64,000 nucleotides of DNA, from contig NZ_CP009928.1 in NCBI RefSeq assembly GCF_001021975.1, positions 3,724,001 through 3,788,000 on the forward strand. The letters run 5' to 3'. A model generated the notes under the pieces. The model ran no database searches, was not told the DNA's origin, and saw nothing but the letters and a program-made list of their open reading frames with translations. Source of the DNA: Chryseobacterium gallinarum (GTDB taxonomy: Bacteria > Bacteroidota > Bacteroidia > Flavobacteriales > Weeksellaceae). Shown here piece by piece: positions 2,928-6,101 of the stretch (position 1 is its first letter; every line of letters starts with the position of its first letter). The position numbers were made by a program, and so were the translations under genes.

Positions 2928-4013
2928 ATGGAAAATTTTATCGTATCTGCAAGAAAATACCGCCCACAAGAGTTTGATACTGTTGTTGGACAATCCCATA
3001 TTACGGATACTTTAGAACATGCAATTGAAGAAAGTCAGTTAGCACAGGCTTTGCTTTTTTGTGGTCCTCGTGGGGTGGGCAAAACTACCTGTGCCAGAAT
3101 TTTGGCCAGAAAAATTAATGAAAAAGACGGTTCTGTTTCAGAAGATGGCTTTGCCTATAATATCTATGAATTAGATGCCGCCTCCAATAATTCTGTAGAT
3201 GATATCAGAGAACTCATTGACCAGGTACGTTTTGCCCCTCAGGTAGGAAAATATAAAGTGTATATCATAGACGAGGTGCATATGTTGTCTTCTGCAGCAT
3301 TCAATGCTTTTCTTAAAACACTTGAAGAACCGCCTGCCCACGCTATTTTTATTCTGGCCACAACTGAAAAGCATAAAATTATTCCAACAATTTTATCCCG
3401 ATGTCAGATCTATGATTTCAAAAGAATCATTATTGAAGATATCCAGGGACATCTGAAAAATATCGCCGTAAAAGAAAATATTCAATATGAAGACGATGCC
3501 CTGTACCTGATTGCCCAGAAAGCAGATGGTGCATTGAGGGACGCTCTTTCCATTTTCGACAGGCTTTCTACATTTTCCCAAAAGAATATTACCCTGGCAA
3601 AAGCTGCTGAAGTATTAAATATTCTGGATTACGATCAATATCTGAATATCGTAGATCTGGCGAAAGAAAATAAAATTCCTGAAGTACTTTTTGCATTTAA
3701 TGAAATTGTAAAAAAAGGGTTTGACCCCCATATTTTCATTGCGGGACTCGGAAATCATTTCAGAGATCTTATGATGGCCCAGAACACAGCTACAATAGAT
3801 CTTATTGAAGTCGGTGAAAAAACAAAGGCCAGGTTTGTAGAGCAAAGCCAGAAATGGAATGCCCAGCAGCTCATCGATGGCATTGAAATCTGCAACCATG
3901 CTGATATCAATTACAAGAACTCAAAAAATCCAAGACTTACAGTTGAAATTGCACTGATGCAGCTGGCTTCCCTGACAGCTAATTCAGGTGATACTAAAAA
4001 AAAAAGTTCCTGA
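2928..4013 (+). CDS. dnaX: DNA polymerase III subunit gamma/tau, zero-frame product
   Basis: This is the clamp-loader ATPase core. Walker A is GPRGVGKT (46-53), Walker B IIDEVH (113-118), followed by the SRC motif (SRCQIYDF) and the lid and collar domains. The zero frame ends after 361 residues at TGA 4011-4013, just past an A10 tract. The frame -1 continues directly into a tau-like tail to 4627. The product therefore resembles E. coli gamma, with tau requiring a -1 slip, unless the A tract is mis-sequenced. The region after Walker A runs from ARKINEKDG straight to ELDAASNN and lacks the four-cysteine zinc module of most DnaX proteins. The start MENFIVSARKYRPQ is the family start. Confidence 0.93.
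   Translation: MENFIVSARKYRPQEFDTVVGQSHITDTLEHAIEESQLAQALLFCGPRGVGKTTCARILARKINEKDGSVSEDGFAYNIYELDAASNNSVDDIRELIDQVRFAPQVGKYKVYIIDEVHMLSSAAFNAFLKTLEEPPAHAIFILATTEKHKIIPTILSRCQIYDFKRIIIEDIQGHLKNIAVKENIQYEDDALYLIAQKADGALRDALSIFDRLSTFSQKNITLAKAAEVLNILDYDQYLNIVDLAKENKIPEVLFAFNEIVKKGFDPHIFIAGLGNHFRDLMMAQNTATIDLIEVGEKTKARFVEQSQKWNAQQLIDGIEICNHADINYKNSKNPRLTVEIALMQLASLTANSGDTKKKSS
3996..4005 (+). other. A10 tract, candidate slippage site in dnaX
   Basis: Ten consecutive A residues precede GTTCC. In frame 0 they read AAA AAA AAA AGT TCC TGA and stop. After a -1 slip they read AAG TTC CTG ATA and stay open for 207 more codons. The -1 frame carries a stop (TAA, 3995-3997) immediately before the tract, so the frames can be joined only inside it. 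The tract includes the heptamer A AAA AAG known from E. coli dnaX, though not in the same register. Either programmed slippage or a homopolymer length error would give this picture. Confidence 0.7.
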
Positions 4014-4627
4014 TATTAGCGCCGTTTCTCAGTGAAAAGCAGGAAGTGAAAACTCCTGAAAAAACGCCAGAGAAAGTAGCAGCTGTAGCTCAGCCTTTGC
4101 CAGTACAGGCGGAAATAGCATCCGAACCTGCTTTCCGTAAGGCCAATAAACCGTTATCCAGACAAGGAGCTTCTCTGGGATTTAGCATTAATTCTTTTCT
4201 GAATACAGAAGAAAAACAAACGATAGAAGAAACGGTAACTGTAAAAACAGAAAATCTTCCCCAGAATCATTTCACAGATACAGATCTGCAGATGGAATGG
4301 AATCTTATGCTTAAACAGCTTCAGAAAAAAGACGGCTTCATATTCAATGCAGTCAAAACGTTTAAACTGGTAAAAAAAGAAGAAAGTAAGATTAAAGTTC
4401 TATACCCTTCAGAATCAGCCAAAGTAGAGTTTGACAAAATAAGCGGAGAATTTTTTAATCATTTCAGAAGAAAAGTTCACAATCATGCTATTGAGATAGA
4501 GTATGAGCGGGACGTTGAAAATCTGAAGATTGAGGTGATGACCAAAAGAAAAATATTTGAAAAATTCATCGAGAAAAATCCACTTTTGAAAGATCTTGAT
4601 GATTTAATGAAGTTTGATTTGACATAA
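4004..4627 (+). CDS. dnaX: DnaX tau-specific C-terminal extension (-1 frame)
   Basis: Read in the -1 frame from the A tract, this gives 207 residues beginning KFLILAPFLSEKQEVKTPEK. A Pro/Glu/Lys-rich linker is followed by a compact domain near the end (NHFTDTDLQMEWNLMLKQLQ to KNPLLKDLDDLMKFDLT). Such C-terminal domains of tau bind the polymerase alpha subunit and DnaB in other bacteria. Together with the first frame the full protein would be about 566 residues. A GTG at 4046 could be proposed as an independent start, but the in-frame residues upstream continue sensibly from the ATPase part, so I treat this as one gene. Unusual only in its frame. Confidence 0.8.
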   Translation, partial: KFLILAPFLSEKQEVKTPEKTPEKVAAVAQPLPVQAEIASEPAFRKANKPLSRQGASLGFSINSFLNTEEKQTIEETVTVKTENLPQNHFTDTDLQMEWNLMLKQLQKKDGFIFNAVKTFKLVKKEESKIKVLYPSESAKVEFDKISGEFFNHFRRKVHNHAIEIEYERDVENLKIEVMTKRKIFEKFIEKNPLLKDLDDLMKFDLT

Positions 4628-4641
4628 TTTTTATATATTTG
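4613..4641 (+). promoter_or_regulatory. Promoter for the DAHP synthase leader transcript
   Basis: TTTG at 4613-4616 and TATATTTG at 4634-4641 are separated by 17 bases, matching the Bacteroidota TTTG / TAnnTTTG pattern. It overlaps the end of dnaX and would start a transcript with a leader of about 370 bases before the DAHP synthase gene. Confidence 0.6.
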
Positions 4642-4723
4642 TCAAATATTTTTGTAGAAATTAAGTCTGCAACAAAAATAAACAGTACAAGAAAACGCTA
4701 AAACAAGACATTTCCAGACAAAA

Positions 4724-4852
4724 ATGGAAAAATTATTATCAACATATCTGTCTTATTTTACACCCGCTAATTACTTTAGCGGTTATTTTAGCTTTTCTGC
4801 TTCTTATTATAGAAATTTCAGAACATATTACCGATTTTACTGGTATTGTTAA
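4724..4852 (+). CDS. Aromatic-rich leader peptide of the DAHP synthase/chorismate mutase gene
   Basis: An ATG at 4724 opens a 42-codon frame ending with TAA at 4850-4852. It encodes 10 Tyr, 6 Phe and 1 Trp, so 17 of 42 residues are aromatic. They are densest at the end, YYRFYWYC (35-42). The frame lies between a good promoter (4613-4641) and the gene for the first enzyme of aromatic amino-acid synthesis (5019). This is the layout of an attenuator leader peptide, where ribosome stalling on scarce Tyr/Phe/Trp codons alters downstream RNA folding. The ATG follows an A-rich stretch, as usual here. AT-rich DNA favours TAT and TTT codons, which tempers the argument, but the position and the TGG/TAC/TTC codons support it. 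A shifted frame reads like a membrane helix but has no start codon. Confidence 0.72.
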   Translation: MEKLLSTYLSYFTPANYFSGYFSFSASYYRNFRTYYRFYWYC

Positions 4853-4874
4853 CTGAATTTCTTTCCAAAAAATA

Positions 4875-4973
4875 CAGGAGGAGCTAAGCCCTTTAATTCT
4901 CCTGATTCCTTTAAAAATTTTTGAACGGCATTTTTTGAAAAGAATTATAAAGTAAATTTTATAATGAAAGGGC
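4875..4973 (+). promoter_or_regulatory. Candidate attenuator RNA structures before the DAHP synthase gene
   Basis: CAGGAG (4875-4880) pairs with CTCCTG (4899-4904); two inner pairs extend the stem to 8 bp. The loop segment GCCCTTT (4888-4894) is complementary to AAAGGGC (4967-4973), which lies 45 bases before the start codon. The two pairings could be alternatives. No clean terminator with an adjacent T run is visible; the nearest is TTTAAAAATTTTT at 4911-4922. Whether control is on transcription or translation is therefore open. Confidence 0.4.
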
Positions 4974-5018
4974 CGTGCTATGATTTTATTTAAAAATGTA
5001 AACAATAGATTTTAGAAT

Positions 5019-6101
5019 ATGAACTTAAAAGATTTAAAAAATGAATGGATGAGTGGTCTTACACAACCATTAATGATTGCCGGACCCTGCAGTGCTGAAA
5101 GTGAGGCTCAAATGCTTGAAACAGCCAAAAGAATTAAAGAATCAAATGCCCAGGTATCTGTTTTCCGGGCAGGAATCTGGAAACCGCGTACAAAACCGAA
5201 TGGCTTTGAAGGAGTAGGAGTGATCGGCTTGAATTGGCTAAAAAAAGTAAAAGAAGAATATGGTTTTAAAACCGCTACGGAAGTAGCCAATGCTCACCAT
5301 GTATTCGCAGCTTTGGAGGCTGATGTAGATGTGCTTTGGATAGGAGCAAGGTCTACGGTAAATCCTTTTACAGTACAGGAAATAGCAATGGCTTTACGCG
5401 GAACAGACAAGCCGGTATTCGTTAAAAACCCTGTAAACCCTGATTTGGCTTTATGGATCGGAGCCTTAGAAAGACTACTTGGGCAGGATATTAAAAATCT
5501 TGGTGTAATTCACAGAGGATTTTCTACCTACCAGAAAACAAAATACAGGAATAATCCCAACTGGCAGATTGCTCTTGACTTCAAAAGCCAGTTTCCTGAT
5601 ATTCCAATGCTGATTGATCCATCCCATATTTGCGGTAATAGAACAGGCCTTGCCGATATAACCCAGGAAGCCCTTAACGTTGGATACCAGGGAGCAATCA
5701 TCGAAACGCACTGTAACCCTGATGAAGCCTGGAGTGATGCCGCACAACAGATTACTCCCGAAGTATTGGCGGACCTTATCAGCAATTTAAAAGTAAGAAG
5801 TTCAAATCTTGCAGGTTTTGAAGGAGAAATGGGAAGGCACAGAACACTGATTTCTGATCTTGACTTCCAGTTAATAGAGCTTCTTTCTCAAAGGATGAGG
5901 ATCTCTGAAAAAATAGGAAAGCTTAAAAAAGAAAACGATATTGCTATTTTTCAGCCGGAGCGTTGGAAGGTTATCACAGAATATGCTAACCAGAAGGCTA
6001 TAGAAACAGGAATGTCCCAGGAGTTTATTGAAAAAATCTTTAAGGCGATCCATGAAGAATCTATTGAAGTTCAGAATAACATTATGATCGACAAGAAATA
6101 A
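5019..6101 (+). CDS. Bifunctional 3-deoxy-7-phosphoheptulonate synthase / chorismate mutase type II
   Basis: The 360-residue protein fuses two shikimate-pathway activities. Residues 1-265 form a type I-beta DAHP synthase, with GPCSAES (22-28), WKPRTKPNGFEG, NPVNPDLALW, DPSHICGNR and ETHCNPDEAWSDAAQQ. It condenses PEP and erythrose 4-phosphate. Residues 271-360 form an AroQ-type chorismate mutase, starting MGRHRTLISDLD and containing RMRISEKIGKLKKEN. This fusion is common in Bacteroidota. The gene stands alone behind a leader of almost 400 bases that encodes an aromatic-rich peptide, so control by Phe/Tyr/Trp supply is likely. The start ATG at 5019 gives the normal family N-terminus. Confidence 0.95.
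   Translation: MNLKDLKNEWMSGLTQPLMIAGPCSAESEAQMLETAKRIKESNAQVSVFRAGIWKPRTKPNGFEGVGVIGLNWLKKVKEEYGFKTATEVANAHHVFAALEADVDVLWIGARSTVNPFTVQEIAMALRGTDKPVFVKNPVNPDLALWIGALERLLGQDIKNLGVIHRGFSTYQKTKYRNNPNWQIALDFKSQFPDIPMLIDPSHICGNRTGLADITQEALNVGYQGAIIETHCNPDEAWSDAAQQITPEVLADLISNLKVRSSNLAGFEGEMGRHRTLISDLDFQLIELLSQRMRISEKIGKLKKENDIAIFQPERWKVITEYANQKAIETGMSQEFIEKIFKAIHEESIEVQNNIMIDKK

Follow-up and report, generated by a model that had tools for sequence, protein, structure and literature searches.

A candidate ribosome-sensing leader rich in aromatic codons upstream of DAHP synthase/chorismate mutase in Chryseobacterium

Leader peptides of amino acid pathways and the Chryseobacterium locus

The closest precedent for the locus considered here is the aroR–aroF leader of Corynebacterium glutamicum, reportedly described by Neshat et al. 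in 2014. In the available text of later publications, aroR is presented as a DAHP synthase (DAHPS) leader that contains Phe-Tyr-Phe and exerts control by ribosome stalling (PMC11802643, PMC4046766), and it is limitation for Phe that matters, not the availability of Tyr (PMC11802643). Closer to the present organism, the accessible sections of work on F. psychrophilum give strong clues to leader peptides before amino acid operons and report structured 5′ elements ahead of several genes, pheA and hisG included; these elements belong to the same class as the leader described below, and the same sections do not name a DAHPS leader (PMC9723704). Short ORFs resembling leader peptides are also noted for B. 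thetaiotaomicron in the available part of one report (PMC7366714). No DAHPS leader in the Bacteroidota was found in a literature search that was judged by titles and the starts of abstracts and covered mostly open-access full text.

The genus itself supplies further comparisons. The trp leader of the genome under study, MFKMSNNIWWWLSNSSSGLKVLSCC (L226, upstream of trpE), contains WWW and is followed by a hairpin of −16.1 kcal/mol with a T tract. All 30 trpE loci fetched after a search of 40 genomes of the genus (L226 and others within L228–L256) have a leader with WW and a terminator with a long T tract, at −12.0 to −17.9 kcal/mol. The his leader of the same genome, MKPTFLALHHYHHHLC (L227, upstream of hisG), is followed by a terminator of −13.1 kcal/mol. 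Together, the trp and his attenuators indicate that the organism uses the attenuation principle. A 19-codon frame with six aromatic codons, LNFNSHLCSYNNNTFNYYL, overlaps the start of pheA in this genome (L257), and no hairpin with a T tract was found in the approximately 500 nt upstream of pheA.

The window, a stretch of 64,000 nt from Chryseobacterium gallinarum, contains a short frame dense in Tyr, Phe, and Trp codons before a gene for DAHPS/chorismate mutase. Like aroR, it is a leader peptide with aromatic codons placed before a DAHP synthase. Compared through the available descriptions, it differs from aroR in its phylum, in the dominance of Tyr, in an invariant Trp, in its length of 42–48 codons, and in having no trp-like terminator. 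With the trp leaders it shares an ORF rich in codons for the end product, competing strands around the stop codon, and a position before the first gene of the pathway. The reading preferred here, with a probability of about three in four, is that a ribosome-sensing leader sets DAHPS/chorismate mutase expression according to how much charged Tyr-, Phe-, and Trp-tRNA is available.

The leader frame and its conservation

The features of the leader locus given below lie on the forward (+) strand. The putative controlled gene (5019–6101) matches the Pfam domains DAHP_synth_1 (PF00793, E 1.3e-37) and CM_2 (PF01817, E 8.9e-22). Upstream, the candidate promoter TTTG-N17-TATATTTG (4613–4641) consists of TTTG at 4613–4616, a 17-nt gap, and TATATTTG at 4634–4641, and it overlaps the 3′ end of dnaX. 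We take the TTTG/TAnnTTTG pattern to be the Bacteroidota-type promoter consensus, and the promoter was assigned by this consensus alone. Across the 72 leaders collected from relatives, a TAnnTTTG box is present in 71, with TTTG 16–21 nt upstream in 57 of 72, and the end of the box lies a median of 82 nt from the leader start. In the window, the leader frame MEKLLSTYLSYFTPANYFSGYFSFSASYYRNFRTYYRFYWYC (4724–4852) encodes 42 amino acids, with 10 Tyr, 6 Phe, and 1 Trp, and ends in YYRFYWYC. The original prediction had placed the promoter, this ORF, the downstream gene, and two RNA pairings discussed below correctly, and its naming of the gene agrees with the domain matches.

The neighboring dnaX gene (window 2928–4627) occupies two frames, with the break at an A10 run near 4001–4010. 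Its halves lie in different frames in all 81 loci with both halves recognized, out of 123 looked at (A10 in 50, A11 in 31), which points to a conserved site of slippage or frameshifting and not to an error in sequencing.

DAHPS was found in all 98 Chryseobacterium genomes. Upstream regions were read for 70 loci from these genomes and 47 from the rest of the family; the leader motif occurs in 67 of the 70 and in 5 of the 47, the latter in two further genera (g9 and g32), which gives 72 of 75 regions when the three genera are pooled. The aromatic-ORF scan returned no comparable leader in the remaining 42 regions of the family, nor in 24 order-level loci from beyond it. By pattern, the motif is present in 79 of 80 named loci, a set that shares species with the main sample and is no independent sample; in the 80th (C. 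gregarium, L211), the frame is kept, as judged by eye, with Phe replacing one Tyr. A covariance model of the region, searched within this family only, matched 26 of 120 family genomes and 3 of 33 genera with one match per genome; 20 of the matched loci were fetched, and the leader and DAHPS were present in 10 of the 10 inspected. A second copy in the C. gallinarum genome was sought and rejected: an exact 18-mer is unique, with one further site at one mismatch. By these searches, the element is clade-restricted, single-copy, and seen in three genera.

The genus members that lack the motif (L050, L051, and L068) are useful natural variants. By eye, L050 and L051 carry a diverged aromatic-rich frame at the same place (YYYSDHSAYW..., ...LFFTDIYYCERFHYSF), and L068 a degraded one.

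The leaders have a median of 17 aromatic codons, with 7–11 within the last 16 codons, and begin with ATG, GTG, or TTG. Their C-terminal consensus is YYRNFRxYYRF(Y)YWY[CS], in which the Trp codon is TGG in 72/72 and is preceded by Tyr in 72/72; Tyr codons alternate between TAT and TAC, and the last residue varies among C, S, Y, and R. The frame is open from the start through the conserved end in all 72. The R-N-F-R stretch is rewritten in L047, L054, L268, and L269, with the aromatic end still in frame. In L055 (from genome G045), the stop is lost and the frame extends 13 codons across the stretch called region 2 below, a natural test of stop position.

Alignment folding, ribosome-mask, covariation, and duplex tests used 41 representatives of the 72 leaders (<95% mutual identity). 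In 40 of these, dN/dS is 0.186 for the C-terminal block and 0.730 for the N-terminal half; L055 was excluded for its lost stop, which was set by hand elsewhere. Over the tested block, 0 of 40 representatives have a stop in the ORF frame, whereas of the two remaining frames one is interrupted in 7 of 40 and the other in 39 of 40. This conservation answers a worry attached to the original prediction, that AT-rich DNA might inflate aromatic codon counts, and alignment of the upstream regions bears out the conservation it had proposed as the key test, with frame and aromatic codons kept in those 67 Chryseobacterium regions and covariation in two of the hairpins described below (A and P2). Judged by substitution patterns, the last leader codons are under selection at the amino acid level.

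The window leader peptide has no Pfam or NCBIfam family match. A leader of the same kind from Chryseobacterium sp. IT-36CA2 is listed in the database as protein P0001 under the name PheST operon leader peptide PheM. It resembles PheM, the pheST leader, in being short and aromatic-rich. Unlike PheM, the present leaders have DAHPS/chorismate mutase downstream in the loci read, and P0001, like the window peptide, has no NCBIfam match; the name is probably a wrongly transferred label.

RNA helices and the predicted ribosome-position switch

Several helices around the leader are conserved. Hairpin A (4764–4790), inside the ORF and with the U-rich tail TTATTTTA, has 97.2% of cells paired and compensatory changes at 6/7 pairs; it scored as terminator-like in the terminator scan and is a putative pause site or weak terminator. 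Region 1 (4811–4821), the codons for R-N-F-R, can pair with region 2 (4853–4873), which lies directly after the stop and whose AATTTCTT begins 6 nt from the first stop base in 61/72. This 1:2 helix is 93.9% paired, with compensatory changes at 2/10 pairs and 10 of the 41 representatives unpaired at the most variable of its positions, one of those two. The last codons form the P0 hairpin (4830–4844), in which the outer three pairs are 99.2% and the inner three 91.9% paired, with zero compensatory change. Downstream, the P4 hairpin (4944–4965), with strands ATTATAAA and TTTATAAT around a variable loop, is 96.6% paired; its strands are near-invariant and again show zero compensatory change (the P4 pattern did not pick up L035). 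Two other roles considered for the P4 region, those of a second promoter and of a DNA operator, were rejected, the loop length of P4 being variable and TAnnTTTG absent.

The covariation score of hairpin A, 1:2, P0, P2, and P4 taken jointly was reached by 0 of 500 shuffles, with the weight on hairpin A and P2. RNAalifold, run on two alignments, predicted 1:2 (in a slightly different register), P0, and P4; on the second alignment, it returned neither P1 (the pairing of regions 2 and 3 described below) nor P2, and 0 compensatory pairs among 19. Mutual information computed across every pair of columns mainly reflected relatedness and was left aside. The window RNA from 4800 to 4977 folds at z = −2.5. 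No Rfam family, T-box or other, matched at gathering score in the window; between 4300 and 5300, there are three weak matches (E 0.5–4.9) to eukaryotic or viral families.

Two other helices had been named in the original prediction as the alternative pairings of an attenuator. They share no bases and so are not alternatives by overlap, and formed together they would make a pseudoknot, as the second joins the loop of the first to bases after P4. Neither is supported as the attenuator. The first, P2 (4875–4904; CAGGAG 4875–4880 with CTCCTG 4899–4904), is a covarying hairpin (compensatory changes at 5/6 pairs, 81.3% paired) that competes with neither helix of the switch described below. The second, helix C (GCCCTTT 4888–4894 with AAAGGGC 4967–4973), passes a loose test in 39/68, of which 35 are loci L002–L037, and is limited essentially to the closest clade; in more distant sequences, possible partners for the P2 loop or for the bases after P4 were judged by eye. 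Its GCCC/GGGC becomes GUCC/GGAC in L032–L034, L036, and L037.

The pairings that do exclude each other are 4811–4821 with 4853–4862 (the 1:2 helix) and 4858–4873 with 4930–4944. The latter is P1, whose 3′ strand is region 3 (4930–4946). The P1 duplex is conserved and stable: its mean energy is −10.1 kcal/mol, and in 39 of 41 representatives it ranks within the best 5% when compared with duplexes of shuffled strands. Its covariation does not exceed that of shuffles; pairing is 84.6% for P1 and 84.4% for the shuffles, of which 156 of 500 reach the same level, so a pairing of this kind could stem from low sequence complexity. Sliding P1 by one column costs little, leaving 81.1% paired. P1 is the weaker limb of the predicted switch, with which the ribosome-mask calculation below agrees in 26–30 of the 41 representatives.

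In the ribosome-mask calculation, the RNA downstream of the ribosome was folded codon by codon in the 41 representatives; the values of L039 are wrong in these results, and in those for start accessibility, P3, and the P1 duplex, because the finder misplaced its region 3. The ribosome was taken to cover the RNA up to 12 nt past the first base of the A site. Expected P1 pairs number 7.6–8.5 with the A site at codons −16 to −7, 5.8 with it at codon −1, 1.7 with it at the stop, and 3.4–4.6 at −20 to −17; the representatives reaching five P1 pairs at these positions are 26–30, 21, 6, and 12–16 of 41. On these counts, it is at the conserved aromatic block that stalling favors P1, in most sequences though not in all; stalling farther upstream, where many aromatic codons also lie, favors P1 less. 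P4 hardly changes between ribosome states (5.8–6.7 pairs) and so is not a classical 3:4 partner. Sequestration of the DAHPS start is unsupported, the mean unpaired value being 0.622 with a stalled ribosome and 0.621 with one at the stop.

In the mechanism proposed here, RNA polymerase would pause at hairpin A and the 1:2 hairpin, allowing the first ribosome to catch up. When any of the aromatic tRNAs is short, the ribosome would stall in the aromatic block and cover region 1, leaving region 2 free to form P1 with region 3, and expression would be on. With a good supply, the ribosome would reach the stop and cover region 2, so that P1 could not form and expression would be off. The sensor part is strongly supported by the comparative evidence, from which we infer a response to aromatic amino acids. 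Sensor and switch would together resemble trp-type attenuation, with the difference that all three aromatic amino acids are read.

The output and competing explanations

Beyond +12 nt from the leader stop, a hairpin with a T tract was found in 0 of 72 leaders at −10 kcal/mol and in 2 of 72 at −6 kcal/mol, unlike the trp leaders with their terminators in 30/30. Such sites occur within the ORF in 57/72 at −6 and 8/72 at −10 kcal/mol, and at 0 to +12 from the stop in 41/72 and 4/72, respectively. A lax test, asking for 6 T in 8 together with a hairpin of −6 kcal/mol or better, is passed by 67 of 72 leaders, and in each of these the best site falls within the ORF or at +7 to +9 relative to the stop. 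P4 lacks a T tract. P3, the hairpin preceding a T6 run at 4931–4936, was rejected as a terminator, with a mean of −0.9 kcal/mol and 4.1 versus 4.6 pairs between ribosome states. The stretch after the stop has 10.5% G versus 14.8% C, and the dnaX end 16.6% G versus 14.0% C; a G-poor stretch of this kind would permit Rho action.

The attenuation logic of the original prediction is supported for its sensing half, a conserved and selected aromatic leader before DAHPS/chorismate mutase with a trp-like geometry of stop and strands; a trp-like intrinsic terminator was not found between leader and gene. Its absence favors premature termination or decay on the exposed G-poor stretch. In our judgment, Rho-dependent termination is the most likely of the outputs, at a little under even odds; next, on the unlikely side, come the hairpins inside the ORF as weak intrinsic terminators. 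A tentative form of the reading, somewhat less likely than not, is a switch that reads Tyr, Phe, and Trp jointly and in which an AU-rich fold at the stop (P1 beside P4) would control DAHPS without an intrinsic terminator, for example by hiding a site of Rho entry or of RNA decay.

The rival readings differ in which part of this evidence they take as central. If the hairpins inside the ORF (hairpin A with TTATTTTA, or 1:2/P0 with the tail ATTTCTTT) were intrinsic terminators whose formation ribosome position decides, the frequency of sites under the lax test and the strong covariation of hairpin A would follow, and both hairpins may indeed act as pause sites or weak terminators. As a full account, this is unlikely: few sites remain at −10 kcal/mol, their tails are interrupted, the trp leaders of the genus show by contrast how strong such terminators can be, and the conservation of region 3 and P4 farther downstream is left unexplained. 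Selection on the peptide invites another account, in which the leader peptide stalls the ribosome on a free aromatic compound and not on empty A-site codons. TnaC is such an arrest peptide, responding to tryptophan. The conservation of the C block beyond its aromatic residues (R, N, R, R), with its low dN/dS, fits this; however, the four loci with a rewritten R-N-F-R and the variable last residue do not. Since the R-N-F-R codons form region 1 and the Arg codon of the second block lies in P0, RNA pairing explains the nonaromatic conservation, and an arrest that raised biosynthesis under product excess would have the wrong sign. The arrest peptide is accordingly a remote prospect.

Purifying selection on the C block and the listing of one such protein in a database could also mean a small protein with its own function, its place before DAHPS being incidental or a matter of simple co-expression. 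This is less probable still, given that the leader jointly retains its spacing to region 2 and its place ahead of DAHPS, the N-terminal half is weakly constrained, no protein family is matched, and competing RNA helices overlap the ORF end. As for a chance ORF in AT-rich DNA, a forward ORF with at least 17 Tyr, Phe, or Trp codons did arise in 4 of 2000 dinucleotide-preserving shuffles of 4631–5018 (mean best 5.6), a frequency that makes composition alone a poor explanation; with frame, codons, and surroundings conserved in 72 sequences, this reading is refuted for practical purposes.

The proposed ribosome-sensing leader would be a clade-restricted form of leader-peptide attenuation. The original prediction had noted that flavobacterial leaders are rarely annotated, but as such they are not new, as the clues in the accessible sections on F. 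psychrophilum indicate (PMC9723704). The locus offers a clean case for how Bacteroidota convert ribosome stalling into control without a visible canonical terminator, and the trp and his attenuators of the same genome provide built-in controls. On this reading, all three aromatic amino acids would be sensed where the shikimate pathway begins. If the terminator-less form is true, it would also bring into view outputs of the Rho or decay type, which are little studied in the phylum.
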